DNA of 26,604 nt from IMG/VR virus record IMGVR_UViG_3300030102_002434, positions 1-26,604 of that record; one strand, written 5' to 3'. The notes under the pieces were generated by a model that saw only the letters and a program-made list of their open reading frames with translations, had not been told where the DNA came from and did not search any database. Of the stretch, positions 1,152 to 25,617 are shown in pieces. Every line of letters begins with the position of its first letter. Position 1 is the stretch's first letter. Origin of the DNA: a virus. A program made the translations under genes and the position numbers.

Positions 1152-3230
1152 ATGCCTGATCGTTGGCAGACATACGGAATAGAATTTCGTGGTGGTTTGA
1201 TATCGAACCTCAGCCCTCTGCAGCACGGTGTTGCTGCTCCCGGTTCAGCCCGTGTTATGAATAACTACGAGCCGTCCACACAAGGCGGCTACAGGCGTAT
1301 TGAGGGATTTACCAAATACAACACAAACGAGGTCACAGGACAGGGAAATGTTCTGGGAGTGGTCTTGTACAACGATACGGCTGTTGTGGCGCGGGATCAG
1401 TCGGCAGGTAATCCAAGACTTTACAGCGCAAGCAAGGGGTCGGGTTCGTGGACAGATTTGTCTGCAGAGGTGGCCACCGCAGTAGTAAACGGGACCGTTA
1501 GCAGTAATACAAATGTCGCTGTTGACGGGAACTCCGGCACCATTGAGGTAGGTGATACGGTCACGGGCACTGGTATTTCGGGAACCGTGACGGTAAGCAC
1601 TGTCACAGATCAGAACAATATTGTGCTGAATACGGCAGTTTCTCTTTCTGACGACGTGGCTTTAACTTTTACAAAGCCTGTTTTGACGTTAGGTGCAAAT
1701 TCAGGAAAAGTACGATTTGCAAAGTACAACTTTGACGGCACTGACAAGCTGTTTATCGTAGATGGTGTAGGGTACCCGTTTGTTTTGAGCGGGACCGCTG
1801 CAAGCGGATTAACTCAACTGTCAACCCCTACCGACATCCAAGGTGCAGGTTTTGTAGTAGCCTTTAAGAACCACATTTTCGTTGCGAATGGTCAAAATGT
1901 TGTTTATTCAGCCCCATACTCCGATAGTGACTTTACAGATGGGTCTGGCGGTGGTATAATCAACATAGGTGCAACTGTAACTGATCTAATTGTTTTTAGG
2001 GAACAGTTGATCATTTTCGCAGAGGACAGGATTTTACGGCTAGTCGGCAGCAGTCAACTAGATTTTCAGCTACAACCGATTGCAGATGATATAGGTTGTG
2101 TGGAGCCAGATACGGCACAGGAAATATCTGGAGACATCATATTCTTGGGGCCGGACGGTTTGCGTACGGTTGCGGCCACGGAACGAAATCAGGACTTTGA
2201 ATTGGCGTCTGTATCCAAGCCTATTCAAAAGCAGATGGTTCAACTGACATCCCGAAACAGTTCTTTTGCATCTGTAGTTATCCGGGAGAAGTCCCAGTAT
2301 AGACTTTTTGGGTTCACAAGGTCGGTTGCAGCGGGAACATCCAAAGGAATTATTGGCACACAACTTCAAGGCGAACGGGGAGTAGGCTTAAACTGGGCAG
2401 AGACAACGGGCATCAAGGCGTTTGTTGCAGATTCCACTTACACAGGCACGACAGAAACCATCCTGTTTGCAAATAACGATGGTTATGTGTATTTGATGGA
2501 ATCGGGAAATAGCTTTGACGGGGACTCTATCCCTTCGACTTTCTCTACGCCATACTTTCCGATTAGTGATGCAAAGCTCCGCAAGACTATCTACAAGGCA
2601 ACAATTTATACAGAGTCTCAGGGTACAGTCGCTTTATCCCTAAACTTAAAATACGATCTGAGTGAAGAGGGGGTTATTGAGCCAAACACTCTTCAGTTGG
2701 AAAACACATCATCTGCAGGCGGTGTGTTTATCTTTGGAGCGCCAAATGTACAGTTTGCAGACGGGGCCAAGATAAACAATGGTGGCGGATATTCGACAGG
2801 CGCATCAAGTATGGTTGTTGATTTAATGTCGTTGGACAGTACCTCATCCCCGACCCTAGCTTCCGGGGATACATTTCAGATTATAACGAGCAGCGCATCG
2901 TCTGCAAACTTTAAAAAGACGTACACCCTATCCAGCACCCCCACAATAACAGGTGATGCAACTGTAACTCCGTCTACGGCAACAACCACTCTTGCATTTA
3001 CTCCAACTTTAGCAGCCGACGTATCAGACAACGACAGCATTATTTTCACCAGCGTTGGCGGGATTGACAATACTTCAGTGTACAGTGGAGAAAGTTTGAA
3101 GTCGATCTTTGACAGCCAAACATTGGGGTCGGGGTTCACCGTATCTTTGCAATTTAGCAGCACAGATACCAATCCACCCTATTCACTCGACTCAGCAGTT
3201 CTTGAATACGGCCAGTACGGAAGAAGGTAA
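1152..3230 (+). CDS. Tail nozzle / tail tubular protein B-like protein
   Basis: A 692-residue, beta-rich protein. The N-terminus has the nozzle-family signature: FRGGLISNLSPLQHG, then PGSARVMNNYEPS and GGYRRIEGF. Residues 60-450 contain repeated strands with surface and blade-like motifs, such as KLFIVDGVGYPFV, KNHIFVANGQNVVY and REQLIIFAEDRILRL, as in T7 gp12-type propellers. The C-terminal 230 residues are Ser/Thr-rich and end in YGQYGRR, a common tail-nozzle ending. In the virion it would form the distal tube and carry the fibres. The start follows GAGGG at 10 bases spacing. It lies between the adaptor and the fibre gene, as in T7-like genomes. A sigma70-like sequence lies inside it (see findings). 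Confidence 0.8.
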   Translation: MPDRWQTYGIEFRGGLISNLSPLQHGVAAPGSARVMNNYEPSTQGGYRRIEGFTKYNTNEVTGQGNVLGVVLYNDTAVVARDQSAGNPRLYSASKGSGSWTDLSAEVATAVVNGTVSSNTNVAVDGNSGTIEVGDTVTGTGISGTVTVSTVTDQNNIVLNTAVSLSDDVALTFTKPVLTLGANSGKVRFAKYNFDGTDKLFIVDGVGYPFVLSGTAASGLTQLSTPTDIQGAGFVVAFKNHIFVANGQNVVYSAPYSDSDFTDGSGGGIINIGATVTDLIVFREQLIIFAEDRILRLVGSSQLDFQLQPIADDIGCVEPDTAQEISGDIIFLGPDGLRTVAATERNQDFELASVSKPIQKQMVQLTSRNSSFASVVIREKSQYRLFGFTRSVAAGTSKGIIGTQLQGERGVGLNWAETTGIKAFVADSTYTGTTETILFANNDGYVYLMESGNSFDGDSIPSTFSTPYFPISDAKLRKTIYKATIYTESQGTVALSLNLKYDLSEEGVIEPNTLQLENTSSAGGVFIFGAPNVQFADGAKINNGGGYSTGASSMVVDLMSLDSTSSPTLASGDTFQIITSSASSANFKKTYTLSSTPTITGDATVTPSTATTTLAFTPTLAADVSDNDSIIFTSVGGIDNTSVYSGESLKSIFDSQTLGSGFTVSLQFSSTDTNPPYSLDSAVLEYGQYGRR

Positions 3231-15242: not shown

Positions 15243-15466
15243 ACGTAACGACCAGACTTCTCAAATATCTCATCGTTCACGGACTTGAGATACCTGATTA
15301 AGCTGGCAACCTTGTAGGTAGCTTCATAGCTAGGCATACCTGCTTCCATCGTTTGAATGAATACTTCGGGGTCAACGGACTGGGTTTCCAGTTCGATGTC
15401 CCCGTTTTCATTTAGGAACACCTGTAGGTTAAACAGGGTGGCCTTCGATTTCTTTTGCTTGCTCAT
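15239..15466 (-). CDS. Hypothetical protein (75 aa), end of replication operon
   Basis: Not recognised. The N-terminus is basic (SKQKKSKAT), then a beta hairpin-like LFNLQVFLNENGDIELET, then a helical C-terminus (YEATYKVASLIRYLKSVNDE). It overlaps the end of the PD-(D/E)XK gene by 38 bases and has no clear ribosome site, so coupled translation is likely. It is the last gene of the leftward operon, and its TAG shares bases with the stop of the opposing Met-rich gene. Confidence 0.6.
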   Translation of the reverse strand: MSKQKKSKATLFNLQVFLNENGDIELETQSVDPEVFIQTMEAGMPSYEATYKVASLIRYLKSVNDEIFEKSGRYV

Positions 15467-15938
15467 AGTGGGTTCGCAGGTCCGAGATAGCTAGGTTGTG
15501 GCAGTCTGCCCGTACTTCGTAGCCGTTGTCCGGATCAAGCTGACCCTTTTTCATAAACACAGACTTATCGAAGTATTCTTCTTTTGACAGGTATCCGAGG
15601 AACCAGCCTTTGGAAAAGTCTTTCAAGATGCGCGTGAACGCGTACACATCACAGTCTTGCTTTGTATTGAAGTTGCTGATGCTGCACGAGTAGTGGGGCA
15701 ACGGGGTTGCTGACGTTTGTTTTGTCTTTACTTCCACCTTGCGACCATCCTCTAAAACGATATCGTAGTCGTACGAGTTTAGCCACGAACCCCCGAGTAC
15801 ACTGAGTACCACCTGTTCGCCGAGAAAGCCCGCGACACTGCCACCGCCCCGTAGGATAGAGTTGTGCAGCAGACCCATCTCAGTGGCCTTGTTACGGGCC
15901 TTGAGGAGCATTTCATCGCTAATCTTTACTTCGATCAT
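15429..15938 (-). CDS. PD-(D/E)XK-fold nuclease-like protein
   Basis: A 169-residue protein. A helix containing GEQVVLSVLGG (E41) is followed by DYDIVLEDGRKVEVKTK, giving E41 ... D59 ... E69-x-K71. This is the helix-strand-strand layout and spacing of PD-(D/E)XK endonucleases (restriction or Holliday-junction-resolvase type). A downstream strand pair (DCDVYAFTRIL, KGWFLGYLSKEEYF) fits proteins of the restriction-enzyme superfamily. It could cut host or incorrectly structured DNA or act in recombination; the substrate cannot be told. An open frame extends upstream to 16019, but the ATG at 15938 is preferred because AAGGAG stands about 10 bases before it. It overlaps the preceding 46-aa gene by 20 bases. 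Confidence 0.65.
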   Translation of the reverse strand: MIEVKISDEMLLKARNKATEMGLLHNSILRGGGSVAGFLGEQVVLSVLGGSWLNSYDYDIVLEDGRKVEVKTKQTSATPLPHYSCSISNFNTKQDCDVYAFTRILKDFSKGWFLGYLSKEEYFDKSVFMKKGQLDPDNGYEVRADCHNLAISDLRTHYEQAKEIEGHPV

Positions 15939-16059
15939 TCTCGTACTTCTCCTTTTTCTTTTGCCACTCTTCGTAGCACGGATGGTTGCGGGGCGGGTCG
16001 TATTGTAACCAACCGTCACCCCGCTTCCATACCAGACGTGTTTCCTTCTTAGGCGGCAT
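15919..16059 (-). CDS. Small basic protein (46 aa) between reductase and nuclease
   Basis: A short frame starting MPPKKETRLVWKRGDGWLQY and ending KKEKYENDRSKD. It is rich in Lys, Arg, Trp and Tyr with a single Cys. The ATG follows GAGGTGG at about 9 bases and overlaps the end of the ribonucleotide reductase by 11 bases. Its end overlaps the nuclease start by 20 bases. The ribosome site plus overlaps on both sides favour a real, coupled gene. I do not recognise the family. Without it, about 110 bases would lie unused between two tightly packed genes. Confidence 0.6.
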   Translation of the reverse strand: MPPKKETRLVWKRGDGWLQYDPPRNHPCYEEWQKKKEKYENDRSKD

Positions 16060-17977
16060 TTAGGTCTACCACCTCACACACACCAGCCGTACACGCGAGT
16101 TCGCGGGAACCGGATGTGTTGTCTTCTTTTTCGTACTCCGAAAGAGCCGCCCAGTCAATATCTAAATTGCCGTAGGTGTACTGCCATTCCAAGTATTCAT
16201 CAGGTTCGATGTCCTGATATGGAGCCTGCTGATATGTATGATCCGAGTGAGGCAAGAAGGACACGCCTGATGCCACATCGAAATTGTCATACACCCACGA
16301 ACCCACGTCCATCCACTCGTGTTCCCTTACAGTGATGGTGACAGAGGGTTTGTGTTCACACCAGTGCATAGCATAGGTCTTCCACAACTCTAGCTGCTCT
16401 ACTGCTGACATATCATTGCGAGTAACGGCACCCTCGGGTGACTGCATGGCAAACGAAAATACAGTTGTGGAGTCGGGCTTCATCACACACGCTTCACTAT
16501 ACACCCCTTGCTCCTTGAGGAACTGTGTCAGGGGGTCTTTGTTATCTCCGCGAACTGTGCGGATGTAGTGATCGTTGTGTCGAGCGTGGATGCCACTAGC
16601 GGCGTCTACGAGTTGAGACACAGTGCCCGACGGCTTTACACAGGTGATGGCAGCGGACTGAGGGATTCCAAGCATCTGGGCAAACTGTAGATTCGTATCG
16701 ACGGCGACTTGTTTCATCTCTTCGAGCCAGCGAGGGGAATCGACGGTTTTGGATAAAATCGAGTGGTCCATAATACCAGTCAAGGAAACGCCCAATAAGC
16801 GTTCTTCTTCTGTGTTGTCTCGCCATATTTTCCTCAGATATTTAAATTCAGTTAGTGTGGACTGCAGGGTGCCCAGAATGGTTGCAAGGCGTACCTTGCG
16901 CTTCAAGGATTGCAGTGTGTCGCTTTCGCGCACGACCACCTCTGACAGGTTGCAAAACTGGTAGGGACGCAAGATTATTTCAGAGCAAGGGTTTGTGCCC
17001 CACATGTGACCCGTTTCACGGCGTCCGTTCCGAGCAACTTGTACGTCTGCAGCCTCGCGGTTGAAGATGCCACGCTCCCCGGACTTGGAATCGTATAGGG
17101 ATACCCACTCACGCATAAAGGTGCCTATCTCTGGTTTGCCTTTGTAAGCAACCGAGTTGTTAGCCAGCGCACGTTGACCCTCGTTCTCCCACCACGCACC
17201 CGACTTGGCATGTGCCATCTGATCGTCATTGAGGTTCGACAGGGAGATCAAAGCAGAGCGACGGACGCCGCCAACAACGACAATCTCACCGATCTTACAC
17301 ATCAAGTCGTGACACTCAATCGGAAACAGCTTGCGTCCCTGCGCCTTGCGAAACAGGGCAACAGTGAAATGGAACAGATCGTCGAGAGGTCCGGGACCAG
17401 ATGCCCTGCCACCCATGGTCTTGAGACGCGCACCAGAAGGCCGTACCTGCGACAAGTCCCACTTCGGAACTTGACCCACATACAACAACCCAATCAGTTC
17501 GCGCAACGACTTGGCCCATCCGGGCTTTGAGTCGCCCACCTTGATAATGGTATCAGTTTCGTGCATCGCATCGCTAATGACAGGAAGCTTGTCTACATTC
17601 TCACGCTCAACAGAGAAGCCAACACCTGTACCACACATCAAAATGTACATACATTCGTCGAATGAGCGTGGGCTATCCACAGGAATGTAGCTACAGTTGT
17701 AGCCGCAGATATTGTCCCGCTCCAAGGCAGAACCCGCAGTCATCATACCACGCATAGAAGGCATAATTTCTTGACCGATAATAGCTTGCTCAATATCAAA
17801 CATATCATCGTCGCTGAGGGTGAAGTTATGCTTTCTTTTAACGTGATCACGCATGAAGTTTGTGTATCGATAAACAGTCTCATCCCAGTTCTCACGGCGT
17901 TGCTCGGTGTCGAGCCAACGGGCGTAGCGGGACTTGTGGATGAATTGTTGATAGGGTGTGGGCAACATATTATTCAT
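16049..17977 (-). CDS. nrdJ: Class II (adenosylcobalamin-dependent) ribonucleotide reductase
   Basis: A 642-residue enzyme that reduces ribonucleotides to deoxyribonucleotides for phage DNA synthesis, with vitamin B12 coenzyme as radical source. The active site is complete: NPCSE (N329, C331, E333) carries the thiyl-radical cysteine and catalytic Asn and Glu. C95 (NCSY) and C342 (11 residues after C331) are the likely reducing pair. The C-terminal CTAGVC supplies the shuttle cysteines C629 and C634. GTGVGFSVE and VKPSGTVSQL (substrate and phosphate region) are also present. The layout resembles the monomeric Lactobacillus-type enzyme (739 aa) but is shorter, and no R2 subunit or nrdG is nearby. 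The start is the ATG at 17977 after GAGGAGAAG, overlapping the DUF3310 gene by 8 bases; the TTG at 17992 lies upstream of that ribosome site and is rejected. Confidence 0.92.
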   Translation of the reverse strand: MNNMLPTPYQQFIHKSRYARWLDTEQRRENWDETVYRYTNFMRDHVKRKHNFTLSDDDMFDIEQAIIGQEIMPSMRGMMTAGSALERDNICGYNCSYIPVDSPRSFDECMYILMCGTGVGFSVERENVDKLPVISDAMHETDTIIKVGDSKPGWAKSLRELIGLLYVGQVPKWDLSQVRPSGARLKTMGGRASGPGPLDDLFHFTVALFRKAQGRKLFPIECHDLMCKIGEIVVVGGVRRSALISLSNLNDDQMAHAKSGAWWENEGQRALANNSVAYKGKPEIGTFMREWVSLYDSKSGERGIFNREAADVQVARNGRRETGHMWGTNPCSEIILRPYQFCNLSEVVVRESDTLQSLKRKVRLATILGTLQSTLTEFKYLRKIWRDNTEEERLLGVSLTGIMDHSILSKTVDSPRWLEEMKQVAVDTNLQFAQMLGIPQSAAITCVKPSGTVSQLVDAASGIHARHNDHYIRTVRGDNKDPLTQFLKEQGVYSEACVMKPDSTTVFSFAMQSPEGAVTRNDMSAVEQLELWKTYAMHWCEHKPSVTITVREHEWMDVGSWVYDNFDVASGVSFLPHSDHTYQQAPYQDIEPDEYLEWQYTYGNLDIDWAALSEYEKEDNTSGSRELACTAGVCEVVDLNAA

Positions 17978-18287
17978 GGTTCTTCTCCTCAATAAGTTTC
18001 TCTAAGTACCACTGTGCTTTCTTCAAGTCTTCGATACCATTTTTATAACGATACCGCCATAGGTACTTTACTATATTTCCCTGCAGGTAATACTCGTACC
18101 CGTCGCTTGTTGCAGCGCGGATAGCATCTATACATTCAATCCCTGCTTGATTGTAATGCGGTGGTGAGTTCACCATGTCGGGTTTGTTCGCATAAAATGT
18201 GTCTAGCATTTCTTCTTCTCTAGCCGTCCACTCTTCTGTTTTCATCTTCATGTACGCCTCGTGTCTCATCGAATCCGGACTGATCAT
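17970..18287 (-). CDS. DUF3310 protein, T7 gp1.7 nucleotide-kinase-like
   Basis: A 105-residue protein. Residues 37-100 hold the DUF3310 pattern: VNSPPHYNQAGIECIDAIRA, then GNIVKYLWRYRYKNGIEDLKKAQWYLEKLI. The same domain forms part of T7 gp1.7, reported as a nucleotide kinase acting on deoxynucleoside monophosphates. A role in dNTP supply fits its place between a MazG-like enzyme and the ribonucleotide reductase. Activity has not been shown for most DUF3310 proteins, so the enzyme name is tentative. The start ATG forms an ATGA overlap with the MazG gene's stop. Confidence 0.75.
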   Translation of the reverse strand: MISPDSMRHEAYMKMKTEEWTAREEEMLDTFYANKPDMVNSPPHYNQAGIECIDAIRAATSDGYEYYLQGNIVKYLWRYRYKNGIEDLKKAQWYLEKLIEEKNHE

Positions 18288-18619
18288 CTATCGTCGCCAT
18301 CGCCGTGCAGTTTTCCCATAGCCTTACGCGCTTGAAGTTTGTACACGTTCATCTCTGCGATTTGCTGTAAAGAGTAGCCTAGATCATCCGCAAGAGTAGC
18401 GCAATACCAAAGTACATCCCCGATCTCTTTTGCAATCTGGTGCCGATATTCCGCATCATCCCGCCCATCACGAATTATCTTCTTTACTTTGTCAGCAACT
18501 TCACCGGCCTCACCGGCAAGACCGAGAGCCGGATAAGTAATCTTCATACGCTCTGGATAGATGGCAAAGCCCCGTGCCTTCGTCTGATAGTTATTGAGGT
18601 TCCAGTTCTCTTTGATCAT
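18284..18619 (-). CDS. MazG-like nucleotide pyrophosphohydrolase
   Basis: A 111-residue protein of the all-alpha NTP pyrophosphatase superfamily. GLAGEAGEVADKVKK gives E37-x2-E40 and KEIGDVLWY gives E65-x2-D68, the metal-binding signature. The preceding N-terminal helix carries YQTKARGFAIYPE. These enzymes hydrolyse nucleoside triphosphates to monophosphates plus pyrophosphate. In phages they are proposed to clean or rebalance nucleotide pools or affect ppGpp levels, and which applies here is unknown. The single-domain length is like other phage MazG proteins and half that of E. coli MazG. It is translationally coupled on both sides by ATGA overlaps. Confidence 0.85.
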   Translation of the reverse strand: MIKENWNLNNYQTKARGFAIYPERMKITYPALGLAGEAGEVADKVKKIIRDGRDDAEYRHQIAKEIGDVLWYCATLADDLGYSLQQIAEMNVYKLQARKAMGKLHGDGDDR

Positions 18620-18963
18620 TGTGTCTTTCCAAAGTTTATTTTAACAATATTGGTGTTCGGATCGTGGGTCACATCTGGTGAGGATTCGGTTTCCTCAATC
18701 ATAGCTTGTTTTGTGGCCTCGAACTGCAATCTAGCTATGCCCGCCTGCATAACACGGTCAAAGTCTGATTCCATGAGTTCAACAATTCCGGACAATATCA
18801 CCGTGCCTGCGGGGACGTACTCCTCGTCCCCATCGTCATCTGTGGTATCGTACGCCGTCATTGTTACATGCTCTTCGTCGCTGCCCTGTTTGAAAATTAA
18901 GTACCACCTATCTTTGAGAAGACTGGCACGTTCCAAGGTGCTTTGAATTTCGTTATCATCCAT
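18616..18963 (-). CDS. Hypothetical acidic protein (115 aa)
   Basis: Not recognised. It begins MDDNEIQSTLERASLLKDRW, then a strand (YLIFKQGSDEEHVTMTAYDT), a very acidic loop (DDDGDEE), a helix (residues about 60-95) and a short basic NIVKINFGKTQ end. The acidic loop may mimic nucleic acid or bind metal, but no motif supports either. The ATG at 18963 follows AGAGGAG and overlaps the endonuclease I gene by 8 bases. Upstream in-frame codons lie inside that gene and are rejected. The stop overlaps the MazG start (ATGA). Confidence 0.6.
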   Translation of the reverse strand: MDDNEIQSTLERASLLKDRWYLIFKQGSDEEHVTMTAYDTTDDDGDEEYVPAGTVILSGIVELMESDFDRVMQAGIARLQFEATKQAMIEETESSPDVTHDPNTNIVKINFGKTQ

Positions 18964-19327
18964 GTGTACACCACTCCTCTGGTATCGATCCCTCGGCCCA
19001 CTTAAAACCGTGCTTTGTAGCCCAGTCACCGTATGTGGTTTTGGAACCCTTGTAAATCCGGTTCGAGGCGCGGACAAATACAAATCGAATGTCCATGTCA
19101 GGATTTTGTTCCTTGACTAGCAACATCTTTACCCTGTCGCCCTTGTCGAGATGACCCTTAGTCTCAACATACACGTTCGTTTCCGGGAAATAAAAGTCCG
19201 GAGTGTAAGTTCGCGGCTTGGGTATGTAAACAATCCGTTCTTTTTCGTACTCAAATGTGATACCCCGCTCCACAAGTTTGCGGGCGACGTTGGATTCAAA
19301 TTGTGATCTGAAACGTATTTTTCTCAT
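18956..19327 (-). CDS. Endonuclease I, T7 gp3-like Holliday-junction resolvase
   Basis: A 123-residue protein that follows T7 gp3 closely through its catalytic core: FRSQFES, TFEYE, YTPDFYFP, VETKGHLDKGDRVKMLLVKE, IRFVFVRA, YKGSKTTYGDWATKHGFKWA and a final IPEEW. The four T7 catalytic residues E20, D55, E65 and K67 correspond to E11, D44, E55 and K57. In T7 this dimeric enzyme resolves branched DNA and degrades host DNA. T7 gp3 is 149 aa, and the C-terminal basic tail is missing here. The start chosen at 19327 overlaps the previous stop (TAATG). An open frame to 19450 exists but lies wholly inside the upstream gene and lacks family similarity. Confidence 0.9.
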   Translation of the reverse strand: MRKIRFRSQFESNVARKLVERGITFEYEKERIVYIPKPRTYTPDFYFPETNVYVETKGHLDKGDRVKMLLVKEQNPDMDIRFVFVRASNRIYKGSKTTYGDWATKHGFKWAEGSIPEEWCTHG

Positions 19328-19719
19328 TATCCTTGAAGCGGAAACGCCCCCTTTATTAAGTTTAGCCGCTTTAGCAGATACTGTTCTACTTTTGGGGTAA
19401 ACTTTCTTAAACGTGATAGTTCCTCGTTTAATGGGATCGTCGGTAAACATATAGCTGTGCCCATCCTTAAATGTTGATTGATCTGTTGAAACTCTTCTTC
19501 GATGCGAACAATATCCCGCACCTCTGTTTCCGAGGTGAGGTAGCCTGAGTCCGAATAATTGTCACGCAAAGTTAAAGGCAGCGAACCCTCAAGGTTTCGT
19601 ACCTTGACTAAGGCGGGTTCGCCGCCTTTACTTTCATGGCTATCGATGTATACGTGTCGAAGCTGCGGGTTCAGGCCCAGCAACTTGAGGTCGTACCCAC
19701 TGGTGTACAAGATAGGCAT
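19327..19719 (-). CDS. Hypothetical protein (130 aa)
   Basis: Not recognised. Predicted mixed alpha/beta: YTSGYDLKLLGL and LRHVYIDSHESKGGEPALVK look like strands and loops, followed by helices (VRDIVRIEEEFQQINQHLRM, and SRLRKFTPKVEQYLLKRLNL). It is moderately basic at the C-terminus. The ATG follows GAAGGAA and lies 1 base beyond the exonuclease stop. Its stop overlaps the endonuclease I start, so the two are coupled, and its function may relate to DNA processing. No conserved catalytic residues can be named. Confidence 0.55.
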   Translation of the reverse strand: MPILYTSGYDLKLLGLNPQLRHVYIDSHESKGGEPALVKVRNLEGSLPLTLRDNYSDSGYLTSETEVRDIVRIEEEFQQINQHLRMGTAICLPTIPLNEELSRLRKFTPKVEQYLLKRLNLIKGAFPLQG

Positions 19720-19720
19720 A

Positions 19721-20599
19721 TCATAGTTCCTTCTTTACCAGCTTTGTGTACCACGTCATTGGCGGGTTCTTGGCTTTTGATGTAATCTTTGGGTGATACT
19801 CTGCATTTTTCCAGCAATGTTCCTTGAACGAGCAGAAAGTACAAGTCTTCGGCATGAGCCGATTGCCTGTCTCAATCTTTTCGCCCTTGATAGTGTACAC
19901 TTCCGGTACAGATGTAAACGGCACCTTGAACTTGGCGTCGGTTACAATAGCACGAACCCGACGATTAGCCTCTTCGAGATACGCCTTGCGATCTTCTTCT
20001 TGATCGTCCGGTGCCTCTACAAAATCCCACTCACCGCTCGACTTGTTGATAGCAATCCAGCCGCCGAAGGGTAAGCCTTTGGACTCAGAGTACAGGAACC
20101 CCTGCATTATGTAGCCAAACGGATCGTCTTCCTTGATAGAGTCGTAGCCGCCCCGTCCTGAGAACTTGTTTTCAAAAGACCACGGGCTTGTGGACTTGAT
20201 GTCCCACACCTTGTCGTCGATGATGACATCCAAGGTTCCATTGACAGTCTGCCCATCAAGTTCGAGGGAACATTGACTCTGTTCTTGCTCAACATTGATG
20301 CCTGCGGCCTTCATAATCAAGACTGCCGCAGCCTCTACAAGGTCACCCATGAGAAAACGTACAACATCGTTGTACGCAACATCTTGCTTGTGACCCTGCT
20401 TTTCTAGCTGCTGTTGACACAGCGGACGCCCAATACCAGACATCCGGATTCGGTAATCCGAGTTCCGGCTGAACTGCTTGCGTATCGCTGCTTTACAGTC
20501 TTCCCCAAACGCCTCAATGAGGTCGTCGAGACGAGAGGAGTCTATCTCCCCTCGCCCCGCCTTTTGAAGGAAGTCCTGAACTTCCAAGAGATGAAGCAT
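19721..20599 (-). CDS. Cas4/RecB-like PD-(D/E)XK exonuclease with Fe-S cluster motif
   Basis: A 292-residue protein. RecB-type nuclease motifs appear in order: E90 (GDLVEAA), D124 (GTLDVII), D133-x-K135 (VWDIKST) and Q166-x3-Y170 (QGFLY). Four cysteines sit where Cas4 and AddB nucleases bind a 4Fe-4S cluster: C61 (RPLCQQQ) and C253, C256 and C262 (CTFCSFKEHC). Such enzymes degrade DNA from ends, often 5' to 3', and in phages act in recombination or host-DNA recycling. It has no Cas neighbours, so adaptation into CRISPR arrays is not implied. It takes the place a T7 gp6-type exonuclease would fill. The start overlaps the preceding stop (TGATG). Confidence 0.85.
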   Translation of the reverse strand: MLHLLEVQDFLQKAGRGEIDSSRLDDLIEAFGEDCKAAIRKQFSRNSDYRIRMSGIGRPLCQQQLEKQGHKQDVAYNDVVRFLMGDLVEAAAVLIMKAAGINVEQEQSQCSLELDGQTVNGTLDVIIDDKVWDIKSTSPWSFENKFSGRGGYDSIKEDDPFGYIMQGFLYSESKGLPFGGWIAINKSSGEWDFVEAPDDQEEDRKAYLEEANRRVRAIVTDAKFKVPFTSVPEVYTIKGEKIETGNRLMPKTCTFCSFKEHCWKNAEYHPKITSKAKNPPMTWYTKLVKKEL

Positions 20600-21453
20600 C
20601 AGCTTGCAAAACGCTGTGCAAGGTCAATGTCGTCATCGCTAGCGGCCATCTTCACAGACGCCTTGTACTCGGACATAACAGAGTCGTTATGGCCTTTTAC
20701 AGTCTCTGCAAACTGCTTGATCAGTTCCTTGTCCGTATCCGTGATAGATACCTCCTTGACCAAGGACAGCTTCGGAGTCCAGTAGATCACACCGCCATTC
20801 TTCTGCTTTTCGGTAGACAGTTCGATGACCGCCTTTTGCATAAGAATCTTGCGACGAGTGAGTTGATTGTCGATGAACTCACGCACAGGACGGAAACCAG
20901 ACCGCTTGAAGTACGCCATGAACGGGACCGACTCCAGTGGAGTAGGCGCACCGCTTGCGTCAGCGGCGTCCGGAGCATCGATAACACCGTAGATCACTTG
21001 ATTACAGCTAACAGACTTACTTAGGATCACACGCGGATCGTCTGAGGCAAGCTGGTCTTCTTCAGAGCGGGTCAAGCGGCCACACTTGTTACCACCTGCC
21101 GAGTCCGGAAACTCGCCAGACAAGCTAGTGCGCTGCACAGACTTACAGGAAAACTTTTGCTCTTCCTGATCCCACACAGACCACTCGTAGGTCCGCATCA
21201 AGGGGCGGATTTGAACAGAGTCAGCGTACACGGGGCCGGAGCCATTCCAAATACGCCACGCGCCACGCTTGAGCGTGATGCCGTCGTCGTTCTCTGCTTC
21301 ATAGTTGATGGTTAGGCGGGGCAAGCCCACACGCGGAGTGGAATCCACGTCAGCCTGTCCCGACATTTTCATCAGGGTTTCTTCATCGCCCGCGTCAAAG
21401 GCAGTTACAAAGTTATTTAGTTCGTCGTTCATAGTTTGAAGTTCTGTACCCAT
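20599..21453 (-). CDS. Replication-module protein, possible ssDNA-binding protein (284 aa)
   Basis: Not confidently recognised. Residues 42-110 are strand-rich with aromatic positions (RLTINYE, GAWRIWNGSGPVYAD, RTYEWSVWD). A Cys-containing middle region follows (FSCKSV, NKCGRL, VSCNQVIYGVID), then a second beta region (PFMAYFKRSGFRP, GGVIYWTPKLSLVKEV). The tail is acidic, ending DDDIDLAQRFAS. A beta-rich body with an acidic tail containing a late Phe, lying between the polymerase and an exonuclease, suggests an ssDNA-binding protein analogous to T7 gp2.5, but no OB-fold signature can be proved by eye. It has its own strong promoter upstream and the ATG follows TGAGGAC. The stop overlaps the exonuclease start (TGATG). 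Confidence 0.5.
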   Translation of the reverse strand: MGTELQTMNDELNNFVTAFDAGDEETLMKMSGQADVDSTPRVGLPRLTINYEAENDDGITLKRGAWRIWNGSGPVYADSVQIRPLMRTYEWSVWDQEEQKFSCKSVQRTSLSGEFPDSAGGNKCGRLTRSEEDQLASDDPRVILSKSVSCNQVIYGVIDAPDAADASGAPTPLESVPFMAYFKRSGFRPVREFIDNQLTRRKILMQKAVIELSTEKQKNGGVIYWTPKLSLVKEVSITDTDKELIKQFAETVKGHNDSVMSEYKASVKMAASDDDIDLAQRFAS

Positions 21454-21517: not shown

Positions 21518-23036
21518 GCCAGTTTTTTCCCATTTTTAATTCTATTCCTACGGGCATGTCGTAACGCACATTGTAACGACGTTCTGTCTCTTGTGGAATC
21601 GCTAACATACTGGCTGCCATGATGTCAATGCACTTTTTTTCCTCACCCGGAAACACGTCCATGACAATCGAATCGTGTACCGTGTTGCAGATGACAGACT
21701 GTAACCCACTGTCTTTTAATAATTTATGGAGCATCACCAAAGCGATGGGTAGAAGATCGGCGGTGGCAAACCCCTGCACGGGATAGTTGCAGATAGCTGT
21801 CCGGTTTGTGGCGGTTCCCCACTCGGTCCAGCGGGTTCCCGGGAAACAATACTGTCTCCCAGACGGCAACTTAATGTGACTTTTGGTTACGGCATCCCGC
21901 TGTAAAAGTTCGTGCCAGTCACTCACACCGCTATACTTTTGCTTGAACGCGCGGTAGTACCGCTTCTGATCTTCGGTACCGCTAACACCCCCATACAAAG
22001 GCTTGAAGGTGTGTGCCTTGGCCTCTTGGCGTGTACAGCCAATGATGTTGGCCGTATAGCTATGCACATCAGTCCCGGCATCCACATCGTTTCGTATCCC
22101 CGCATCCTTTGCAAGGAACCCGGCAACGCGAAATTCTAGCTGGGCGTAGTCACCCTCAAGGATCGAACCACCCTCGAACCTGCTTTCGACAGCACGGCGG
22201 ATAATAAAGGTTGAGCCGCGTGGCATATTCTGGAAGTTGGGGTTGCGAGACGATAGGCGTCCCGTGGCTGTTACACACTGTTGATACTCTGTGTGGATGA
22301 AACCATCCGAATCCATGTTGTTCTCCATGCCCTCGACAAAAGACCGCAGGTAAGTTCGCACAGCAGAATATCGAACGTACGCCTCTGCAAACTCCCGGGC
22401 GTCACCGCGCAAGTCTGTCATCATTTCTTCGAGTGTGGATTTGTCAGTCTTGAAGCCACCCGAGGCCGTATCAAACGTGTCGCGAGGAACGAGTTTGAAC
22501 CCGGCAACTTCCCCGGTGCTTTTGTAAAGGACGCCGGAGCCGCCACAGGTCTTACAGATACGAACAGCCTTACCGGGGGTACCATCCTTGCGAGGTGGCG
22601 TGTAGCGGCCCCTCCCAGCGCAATCTGGGCACTGTTCACCGGTAGTCTTGTATAGGATTGTGGTCTCGTTCAAGATGTGCCGTTTGAACTCACCCTTCGC
22701 CATCCGGGTCCGCTGCTTGGGCTTCTTTGTTGCGCCGCGAATCTCGTGACCCAGATTGAAGATGGCGGCCCACCGCTTCTTGTCTTTGATCGCGCACGAA
22801 TAGAATAGGCGTGACCTGTCGTCAGGGCTGTCGAGGTTGACCGGCGTATCACCAACGGCGTTCGCGGCTAGCTCCTGTAGGCGTCGTTCCAAGGTGAAGA
22901 GTTCGTTTTCGTATTCTTTTCGGATGTCAGCGAGAGTGTCGCGATTGATCTTGATGCCGTTACGTTCGATATCTGCGAGTGCGTCGGTGACCTCAAGCGA
23001 CAGACGCAAAGTGGGCAAGAGTGCCTGATTGTTCAT
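21489..23036 (-). CDS. Family A DNA polymerase, polymerase domain with DnaJ-type zinc finger
   Basis: A 515-residue replicative polymerase without its own exonuclease domain. Motif A is GDYAQLEFR (D296), motif B is RQEAKAHTFKPLYGG (R336, K340, F344, Y348) and motif C is VHDSIVMD (D455). F344 stands at the E. coli Phe762 position, where T7 has Tyr. Residues about 82-190 are an insertion between the NLDSPDDRSRLFYS thumb segment and the KTDKSTLEEM segment. It holds a two-repeat DnaJ-like finger: CPDCAGRG (C136, C139) and CKTCGGSG (C161, C164). A polymerase with a partial DnaJ domain was described for phage HMO-2011. The ATG at 23036 follows GAGGA at 8 bases; in-frame codons up to 23081 lack a ribosome site. 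It overlaps the exonuclease gene by 44 bases in another frame. Confidence 0.92.
   Translation of the reverse strand: MNNQALLPTLRLSLEVTDALADIERNGIKINRDTLADIRKEYENELFTLERRLQELAANAVGDTPVNLDSPDDRSRLFYSCAIKDKKRWAAIFNLGHEIRGATKKPKQRTRMAKGEFKRHILNETTILYKTTGEQCPDCAGRGRYTPPRKDGTPGKAVRICKTCGGSGVLYKSTGEVAGFKLVPRDTFDTASGGFKTDKSTLEEMMTDLRGDAREFAEAYVRYSAVRTYLRSFVEGMENNMDSDGFIHTEYQQCVTATGRLSSRNPNFQNMPRGSTFIIRRAVESRFEGGSILEGDYAQLEFRVAGFLAKDAGIRNDVDAGTDVHSYTANIIGCTRQEAKAHTFKPLYGGVSGTEDQKRYYRAFKQKYSGVSDWHELLQRDAVTKSHIKLPSGRQYCFPGTRWTEWGTATNRTAICNYPVQGFATADLLPIALVMLHKLLKDSGLQSVICNTVHDSIVMDVFPGEEKKCIDIMAASMLAIPQETERRYNVRYDMPVGIELKMGKNWLDLEEVLTV
22533..22631 (-). other. DnaJ-type zinc-finger segment in the polymerase
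   Basis: Encodes polymerase residues 136-168, with two C-x2-C-x-G-x-G repeats separated by 21 residues, enough for one zinc site. DnaJ proper has four such repeats. The finger is bracketed by similar segments, ILYKTTGE before and VLYKSTGE after, that also match at DNA level. Confidence 0.85.
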
Positions 23037-23577
23037 TGAACAGTTCCTCAAATGTAGTGCCAAAGGCTTCGAGTTGTGCAAGTGCTACTTGCTCGGTTGC
23101 AAGGACATCCGCCTTGCCGTATGTTTCAATTATATTCCAAGGAATGTCATAAAACGTCTTACCCTCCTTGAAATACGGCGCGATAAGGTCTGTCTCCTTT
23201 TGTACTCCACTATACTTTTCTGCAAGAGCAGCAAGTCCCAGAGGCCAACGACGCGACCTCGCCAATAAATATTCCGCAACCATCGTGTCATAGATATGCC
23301 CCTTGTATACGAATCCGCAGTCACGAATCCAAGATAAGTCAAACTTGATATTTTGTCCAACGATAACGTCAGCGTGGTTCAAGGCAGCTTGAAATTTTGT
23401 GAATGCGCCCTCTGTGGGCGGCTCCGTCGAGTGGTAGTAACACTGATAGTCAACGGTGCTGTTAAGCCATTTGTAGCCAATAGAAACAAGCGAGTTGCCA
23501 AAGTATGGCAGGGGCGTGGACTGCCCATTTGCCTTTTCTCGGTGCGTAGTTTCGATGTCAAAGGTCAGGACGTTCAT
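22993..23577 (-). CDS. 3'-5' exonuclease (DnaQ-like, polymerase proofreading domain)
   Basis: A 194-residue protein. Exo motif I is FDIETT (D7, E9), motif II is GQNIKFDLSW (N76, D80) and motif III is Y153-G-K-A-D157. HIYDTMVAEYLL is typical of family A proofreading domains. Together with the next gene it reconstitutes the T7 gp5 layout: exonuclease 194 aa plus polymerase 515 aa, against 704 aa for T7 gp5. It ends in a short frame-specific tail (AHFASVA) after the point where the downstream protein picks up in the +1 frame. It would proofread the polymerase in trans. The start overlaps the helicase stop (TGATG). Confidence 0.88.
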   Translation of the reverse strand: MNVLTFDIETTHREKANGQSTPLPYFGNSLVSIGYKWLNSTVDYQCYYHSTEPPTEGAFTKFQAALNHADVIVGQNIKFDLSWIRDCGFVYKGHIYDTMVAEYLLARSRRWPLGLAALAEKYSGVQKETDLIAPYFKEGKTFYDIPWNIIETYGKADVLATEQVALAQLEAFGTTFEELFNEQSGTLAHFASVA

Positions 23578-24815
23578 CAGTAGTACACCCCTCTGTGTAC
23601 ATCAATGTGGCAAGTCTCCATACCGTGCCAGCCATTGACTTTGTTCTTGGAAATGCAGATGTGCCGCACCGTGTTTTCCTCCTCCGATGTGCCCGTCTTG
23701 CCGATGCCGATGATAACATCAGCCTCGCCAGCCTTGCCAGTCTTTGAGTTGTCCATCATAGAGTAGTCAATAAATTGACGATCATGTCCGTCGTATGACG
23801 CCTGACTGACAGCCCATACCAACAGCTTGTTCCGCTTGGCAACCTCGCGGGCAAGCACATACGTTTCCTTGAGGCGTTCGTCGCCACGACTAAACGTGCC
23901 CTCGACCCGGAACTTGTCAAGCTGATCACAGAACATAACGTCCGGCTCATTCAACTGCGCGTAGTCGTTGAGTTCGTCCATCGACATGCCTACCGCATCC
24001 ATGACAGTCAGGTACGGATCGATCTCCTCGACATACCGCGCATCAAACTCGGCAGATGAGGAACACAACTCATCTGTCGTCATTTCAAAGTAAGACTGTA
24101 GTATACGCCTTTTGATCTTGGCAGCCTCTTCTTCGTTCGCCCAGTACACAACCTTTTGTTTTTGCTTGATATATTTGGCTGCGAGGAAAGAGCAGAAGGT
24201 CGTCTTGCCTGTCTCGGGTCGCGCAAATATGATGCCCAAGCCGCCACGATCCATTCCCGGCAACCGATTGGCAAGTATGTCCCAGTCGAATGGAAAGTCT
24301 GGCACAGCGGTCTCCTGCGAAAACAAATCAGAAAGTCCGCGCGTCACTTCCGTGTAAGTTGTCTTGTCGGACATGCGTCCGTCCTCAACCATATCGATCA
24401 GGGTCTTGAGTTCGCCAAAGTGTTCGGACTCGCCTGTAAAAATGGCAATCGCCTTTTCACCGATCTGACGTGCCCTGTCACGAACCCAAAAGTTCTTGAC
24501 CACATCATATTCGAGTTCCGTGGTGTCAGAAATTTTATCCGGTAGGGTGTCAATTATTTGATAGATTTCCTGCATAGCCGACGATGGCATTGCCGGATTA
24601 CGATCAGCAACCACCGCTGCCAACTGACGCGGGTGTAAGTCCACGGCATATTGCTTGTGGCTGTACGATATGCTGTCGAATATCGTGACCATGCGTCCCT
24701 CGAACATGTCGCGAGTGACAATATTCTTTACACGGTCATAGAAATTTTTGTTTAGGATATATCCGAGGACTTGACCCTCAAGGGATATACTTGTCGAAAG
24801 TGCGTTTTCGCTCAT
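23577..24815 (-). CDS. DnaB-like replicative helicase
   Basis: A 412-residue protein. The N-terminal 150 residues are helical and resemble the DnaB N-domain (SLEGQVLGYILNKNFYDRV). The RecA-like core follows: Walker A is ARPETGKTT (K204) with Ala in place of the first Gly, an acidic NEEEAAKIKRR stretch is the likely H1a region, Walker B is PDVMFCDQ (D297), and LVWAVSQAS supplies the H3 glutamine. As a hexamer it would unwind DNA ahead of the polymerase. In T7, primase and helicase are one protein; here they are separate but adjacent. The ATG lies 38 bases inside the primase gene with GAAGGAA upstream. Confidence 0.88.
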   Translation of the reverse strand: MSENALSTSISLEGQVLGYILNKNFYDRVKNIVTRDMFEGRMVTIFDSISYSHKQYAVDLHPRQLAAVVADRNPAMPSSAMQEIYQIIDTLPDKISDTTELEYDVVKNFWVRDRARQIGEKAIAIFTGESEHFGELKTLIDMVEDGRMSDKTTYTEVTRGLSDLFSQETAVPDFPFDWDILANRLPGMDRGGLGIIFARPETGKTTFCSFLAAKYIKQKQKVVYWANEEEAAKIKRRILQSYFEMTTDELCSSSAEFDARYVEEIDPYLTVMDAVGMSMDELNDYAQLNEPDVMFCDQLDKFRVEGTFSRGDERLKETYVLAREVAKRNKLLVWAVSQASYDGHDRQFIDYSMMDNSKTGKAGEADVIIGIGKTGTSEEENTVRHICISKNKVNGWHGMETCHIDVHRGVYY

Positions 24816-25581
24816 CGCTTGTCATTTCCTTCACATCTTTATCTAAGATAACTAAACTGGTAGGCCTAATAGCCTGTAACGTGCGAACCAACTTTAGTGC
24901 CTTACCGGTTGCATCCTTGTCAAGAGCAACAATGAGGCGATCATAGGTTCGCAGCGTTGGTATGTACGAGTCTAAAAGACTGGTTCCGAGTAGGGCTATG
25001 CCCGAGAGAATATCACTAACACTGCAAGCACTAGCACAATCTTCAAGAAGAACGCCGATACGTCCCCCGCCGCAAACGAAAGGATAACCTGACTTTCCAT
25101 ATCTCCACCATTTTGGTTTGATGTTTTTATCCAAAGCTCGGCCCGCCGCATCGACAACCCGATTGTTATGACGGACAAGATACACAACCCGCCGCGATCT
25201 GAAATCGTACCGGATGTCAGCCAAACCGTTTTGATACGCCCCGTACGCATTGACCCGGCGCACATATGATTCGGCATCAGGTTCCCGGGACAACGCCACA
25301 AACGTGTCCGGCAACTCAAAGCTTCCCTCATAAGTGTCGGGCCTTGGGCTTGCAAGCTTGACCTTGGCCAGCAAAGGATGATAAGAGGTGTCCTTGCGGA
25401 TGCGAAATCCGGTGCGACCCTTCACATCACAGTCGGCGTGAAAGCAATACCACAAGCGTTCGCCGTCTACCTCTGACACACTAAAAGTGTTTTTGTGGGA
25501 ACACGCAGGACAATCCATCCGCAAACTTCCGGAGCCGCCAATCGGTAAATCTTCTACAAAATCTTTTATCCAATCAGTCAT
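24778..25581 (-). CDS. DNA primase with zinc finger and Toprim domain
   Basis: A 267-residue protein. The N-terminal zinc-binding domain has CPAC (C24, C27) and a second pair C46 and C51. The Toprim domain has E180 (GVLLEDCASA) and the D-x-D pair D221 and D223 (IVALDKDATGKA). It matches the primase half of T7 gp4 in layout and would make RNA primers for lagging-strand synthesis. The start is the ATG at 25581. No ribosome site precedes it, and a candidate -10 box ends 7 bases upstream, so the mRNA may be leaderless. A TTG 36 bases upstream is in frame but lies within the promoter. Confidence 0.87.
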   Translation of the reverse strand: MTDWIKDFVEDLPIGGSGSLRMDCPACSHKNTFSVSEVDGERLWYCFHADCDVKGRTGFRIRKDTSYHPLLAKVKLASPRPDTYEGSFELPDTFVALSREPDAESYVRRVNAYGAYQNGLADIRYDFRSRRVVYLVRHNNRVVDAAGRALDKNIKPKWWRYGKSGYPFVCGGGRIGVLLEDCASACSVSDILSGIALLGTSLLDSYIPTLRTYDRLIVALDKDATGKALKLVRTLQAIRPTSLVILDKDVKEMTSDERKRTFDKYIP

Positions 25582-25588
25582 GCAAACG

Positions 25589-25617
25589 GGAGTACACCAT
25601 ATCGAAAATGCCGTCAA
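25589..25617 (-). promoter_or_regulatory. Candidate leftward promoter for the replication operon
   Basis: Minus strand: TTGACG (25617-25612), a 17-base spacer, TACTCC (25594-25589). The -35 is 5 of 6 to consensus but the -10 is weak. Predicted transcription would begin at about 25582, at the primase ATG. Confidence 0.5.

Follow-up and report, generated by a model that had tools for sequence, protein, structure and literature searches.

The window, the whole 26,604-nucleotide stretch of viral DNA analysed here, encodes on its minus strand a family A DNA polymerase with a long, cysteine-bearing insert (Table 1). Upstream of the polymerase lie genes for a DnaB-like helicase, a Toprim primase and, as an ORF of its own, a 3'-5' exonuclease. 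Since the relatives of the polymerase and the structural genes on the plus strand both match HMO-type phages, the window is assigned, by its sequence, to the HMO-2011-type marine phages, which are reported to be widespread and dominant in ocean waters (PMC9038755). The nearest named relatives of the polymerase are those of pelagiphage HTVC033P (46.5% identity), HMO-2011 (40%) and Roseobacter phages, CRP-1 among others. At 49%, the G+C content lies above the 34–39% reported for HMO subgroup X and the 32–35% for subgroups VII–IX. The region 15429..20599 (minus) holds nucleotide and repair genes, namely a class II ribonucleotide reductase, a MazG-like pyrophosphatase, a nucleotide-kinase-like protein and an endonuclease.

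Table 1 Features of the polymerase locus in the window (positions of the whole stretch)
Feature	Position	Strand	Remarks
Conserved 284-aa protein, acidic C-terminal tail	20599..21453	minus	next gene after the polymerase; possible partner for the basic insert
Family A DNA polymerase, 515 aa	21489..23036	minus	start ATG at 23036
Thumb insert, residues 82–193	22458..22793	minus	from profile alignment, AlphaFold2 secondary structure, lengths and charge
Zinc-ribbon hairpin CPDCAGRG-x17-CKTCGGSG, cysteines at residues 136–164	22545..22631	minus	basic turn RKDG at 149–152
Segment NLDSPDDRSRLF, residues 67–78	22803..22838	minus	equivalent of T7 FNPSS and Bst NINSPKQL
3'-5' exonuclease, separate 194-aa ORF	22993..23577	minus	Pfam DNA_pol_A_exo1, E=4e-11
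Ribosome-binding-like GAGGAA in the 18 bases before the polymerase ATG	23037..23054	minus	within the exonuclease gene

The polymerase matches the Pfam family DNA_pol_A at E=9.6e-48 and carries motifs A, B and C in its polymerase domain, as is characteristic of family A; recognisable motifs lie at residues 255 (VTATGRLSS), 296 (DYAQLEFR), 338 (EAKAHTFKPLYGG) and 451 (NTVHDS). AlphaFold2 models the protein with a mean pLDDT of 91.8 and a pTM of 0.81, the blocks of the insert ranging from 77 to 97. Structural comparison gives Z scores of 27–28 with Bst Pol I, Klenow and Pol theta and of 25 with T7. With T7, 388 residues can be aligned, and similar numbers with the other three; what is left unaligned corresponds roughly to the length of the insert.

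An earlier note on this DNA had placed an insert of about 110 residues in the polymerase thumb. Its coordinates, 22793..22467 on the minus strand, translate into residues 82–190, or 109 amino acids, and the location holds as well: model and profile alignments put the insert between two thumb helices, H1 (71–79) before it and H2 (199–208) after it, starting past residue 80 behind NLDSP. When the family profile is aligned with Bst Pol I, which required a looser cut-off as the strict one gave no match, positions 82–172 have no counterpart and only 5 Bst residues occupy the gap, which falls between NINSPKQLGVILFEKL and KTGYSTSADVLEKL. The same interval spans 96–112 residues in the finger-bearing group, as opposed to about 15 (12–18) in 20 relatives without the finger. 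A relative in which exonuclease and polymerase are fused is modelled with identical topology (pLDDT 92.7). Model and alignments alike thus describe the insert as an enlarged H1–H2 loop of the polymerase thumb.

Such a finger was already known: the polymerases of HMO-2011-type phages have been described with a ‘partial DnaJ central domain’ between the exonuclease and polymerase domains (PMC9038755, PMC6918029), in agreement with the note, which mentions the domain in HMO-2011 as one whose role is not established; in the literature surveyed we found no functional data on it. That published wording is imprecise, because the thumb belongs to the polymerase domain, and the more precise placement given here is that of a thumb-loop insert with one DnaJ-like zinc-ribbon hairpin.

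Is this, then, the loop that binds thioredoxin in T7? The thioredoxin-binding segment of T7 gp5, whose boundaries we take to be residues 258–333, ends immediately before F334NPSS and sits one helix earlier than the insert of the window. Here the order is reversed, with the segment NLDSPDDRSRLF preceding the insert, and anchors, model and profiles all bear out the two different sites that had been proposed, after NLDSP in one enzyme and before FNPSS in the other. Between the long thumb helix and N67, where a T7-like segment would lie, the window polymerase has just five residues (62–66), so that no such segment is present. An automatic multiple alignment that equated the two inserts through shared VAG letters was rejected as an artefact, since the NLDSP/FNPSS and TDxxTL anchors show different sites.

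Within the insert, the cysteines C136, C139, C161 and C164 fall at positions 22631, 22622, 22556 and 22547, exactly where they had been reported. All four are kept in 310 of 310 aligned finger-bearing polymerases, and two CxxC pairs spaced 10–40 apart turned up in 33 of 20,000 shuffles of the window polymerase; on both grounds the pattern is not a chance one. A scan of viral contigs that was blind to the finger and relied on exonuclease and polymerase motifs returned two classes once fragmentary sequence beginning after the finger had been set aside: proteins whose two CxxC pairs lie exactly 25 residues apart, and relatives that clearly lack the finger. The four invariant cysteines would bind zinc. 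Around the hairpin the model shows a strand pair, a helix (114–124) and two long strands (129–135 and 169–177).

The label ‘DnaJ-type finger’ stands in part. Searched with the family profile, the closest solved structure is DnaJ (1exk, E=3e-5), followed by antitermination protein Q (E=0.002–0.006) and primase zinc ribbons, and the Pfam family DnaJ_CXXCXGXG is matched by 15 of 15 members scanned (best E=2.5e-8). Such matches, together with hints in the HMO-2011 literature at a DnaK/DnaJ role by analogy with lambda replication, would suit a finger that recruits host DnaK or acts as a DnaJ-like chaperone. Yet the window protein itself scores below the Pfam cut-off (17.8 against 32.7 bits), has two CXXCXGXG motifs (at 136 and 161) where DnaJ/Hsp40 proteins have four and two zinc centres, and contains no HPD, the J-domain motif, anywhere along its length. 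By sequence, the insert resembles the DnaJ zinc hairpin (motifs II and III), and that part of the label is sound, but neither the J domain nor the set of four motifs is there and it is not a DnaJ. A link to DnaK therefore has no sequence support; as the match spans one generic zinc hairpin common to antitermination Q and primase ribbons, we regard a chaperone role as extremely improbable. A search for the whole 109-residue insert outside HMO-type polymerases gave no clear match, with weak ones in phage helicases and primase-helicases. The primase of the window (24778..25617, minus) retains its own N-terminal cysteine motif, CPAC...CFHADC, and the polymerase finger has therefore not replaced the primase zinc domain.

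When did the finger enter this lineage? In a tree from which the columns of the insert had been left out, the finger-bearing sequences all lie on one side of a branch supported at 100/100, and one change therefore explains the finger. The tree indicates that it was gained once, ancestral to the phage group, with a sister group that lacks it. It also lies in a loop other than that of T7, and both points agree with the independent acquisition suggested beforehand. Within the clade it was never lost, as expected for a replication function. One finger-less relative (L009, StenR_269) has a short thumb loop, yet a thioredoxin-domain gene (1809..2075) lies a little upstream of its polymerase.

The exonuclease of the window tells of a second event. 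Exonuclease and polymerase form one ORF in every HMO-type isolate for which the genes were read (8/8), whereas in the window the arrangement of exonuclease, finger and polymerase in a single protein is broken up: the exonuclease ORF overlaps that of the polymerase by 44 bases in another frame. The same split, with an overlap of a few dozen bases and a change of frame, occurs in 72 of 72 scorable clade relatives, in which both parts are present, and the exonuclease motifs are intact in all 63 that are long enough to judge. In all 22 relatives listed, the polymerase ATG has GAGGAA or GAGGAG ahead of it. A sequencing frameshift was rejected as the cause of the split, since relatives repeat the split itself, the change of frame and the start codon. 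Monophyletic at 100/99 and grouped with the HTVC033P type at 94/83, the split clade is nested inside the HMO-2011-type family, which points to one gene fission of a fused ancestor. The split is a new finding and is not described in the HMO-type literature surveyed. When more than 2000 HMO-2011-type polymerases were surveyed in a published study, the tree was limited to sequences above 540 aa, a threshold that may have excluded the split clade.

What could the insert do? Its most conspicuous property is charge: the insert of the window carries a net +14, the remainder of the protein −8, and among 107 representatives the means are +10.6 (range 4 to 20) and −3.3. T7 behaves likewise, with a segment of +6 on a protein that is otherwise at −19. 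K or R stands without exception at positions 86, 130, 149 and 150 and almost without exception at 181; in the hairpin turn, [KR]K[DN]G, K150 and G152 occur in 107 of 107. Outside the cysteines, the glycines and these few basic positions the insert varies, as one would expect of a structural staple, a zinc ribbon that keeps a long loop folded and makes no specific contact with DNA or protein. Such a staple, however, needs neither the conserved basic 149/150 turn nor a positive net charge in every member, and a loop of 15 residues suffices in the sister group, so that we consider it improbable.

We propose instead that the insert most likely forms a built-in grip on the DNA duplex that raises processivity, a reading to which we give about an even chance. 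It is favoured because the insert is basic, its basic positions are conserved and the corresponding loop touches DNA in related polymerases; the lack of a T7-like thioredoxin segment and the retention of the finger throughout the clade lend further support. In Taq and Pol I, loops at the H1–H2 position contact DNA; in Pol theta, processivity and the binding of duplex are both aided by loop 1, which is long and basic (PMC9841435, PMC9962433). Contact of the insert with DNA is suggested by this site. The four cysteines would bind zinc and stabilise the hairpin, allowing K86, K130, R149, K150 and K181, all invariant or nearly so, to line the backbone of the newly synthesised primer-template duplex on the upstream side of the active site. 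The result would be a higher affinity for the duplex and a higher processivity without host thioredoxin, as with insert 1 of DNA polymerase theta.

Basic charge, however, would suit protein docking equally well. Directly downstream of the polymerase lies a protein whose homologue is found in 302 of 360 loci, every one of them finger-bearing. Its last 15 residues have a mean net charge of −4.8, compared with −0.1 in control stretches, and an acidic tail is present in 82% of the downstream proteins but in 14% of the controls. The insert might thus chiefly be a docking platform for a phage replication protein, be it this acidic-tailed protein, the helicase or the primase. In T7 the C-terminal tail of the SSB binds the thioredoxin-binding domain (PMC7699545), and besides its basic residues the insert has conserved aromatics, W89 and F117, and a further one, Y79, shortly ahead of its start. 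The co-occurrence of finger and downstream gene, on the other hand, reflects a single clade and does not count as independent evidence. The 284-residue protein is a candidate SSB-like protein or polymerase partner; it has no recognised fold, a family profile search matched no solved relative, and the SSB label is a guess. Docking is the strongest rival reading; on balance we see it as a possible, if rather unlikely, chief role. The duplex grip and docking could coexist.

These observations might fit into a larger picture, which we put forward tentatively and as somewhat short of probable: phage replicases would independently have turned the thumb loop that is also enlarged in Pol theta into a zinc-folded, built-in processivity element, in place of a factor borrowed from the host such as thioredoxin. 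In the window clade this would go along with a proofreading exonuclease that has become a subunit of its own, making the family A replicase a two-chain enzyme. The literature surveyed gives no account of how HMO-2011-type polymerases stay on DNA. Once it is located in a thumb loop that is turned towards DNA in related polymerases, the ‘DnaJ domain’ becomes a concrete element for processivity or docking that can be tested, which argues against the chaperone reading. The natural split of exonuclease and polymerase also offers a convenient two-part enzyme for bench work.

How does the insert compare with known systems? With the cysteine-rich domain of DnaJ it shares the order CxxCxGxG-hairpin-CxxCxGxG, but it represents one hairpin of two zinc centres and lies, without a J domain, inside a polymerase. 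The zinc ribbon of phage antitermination protein Q shows the same hairpin pattern in a different protein with a different role. T7 gp5 likewise has a basic thumb insert in a replicative family A phage polymerase; there it is a flexible segment in another loop, here a zinc ribbon, no sequence similarity between the two is established, and a thioredoxin link is known for the T7 segment.

The HMO-2011-type polymerases are closest, with two CXXCXGXG motifs in the insert of a family A polymerase and the same downstream gene, but the papers put the domain between exonuclease and polymerase where we map it to the thumb, and the isolates have a fused ORF in place of the separate, overlapping exonuclease gene. 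Pol theta, finally, is the top-ranked fold match of the window polymerase (Z 28.3, tied with Bst Pol I). Its insert 1 is also a basic thumb loop near the upstream duplex, apparently at the same site, as is suggested by published work, by the order of the helices and by residue offsets; the H1–H2 loop is shared with Bst Pol I by profile, the Pol theta match comes from residue ranges and papers. The insert of this repair polymerase differs in being about 30 residues long, disordered in solved structures and devoid of a zinc ribbon.
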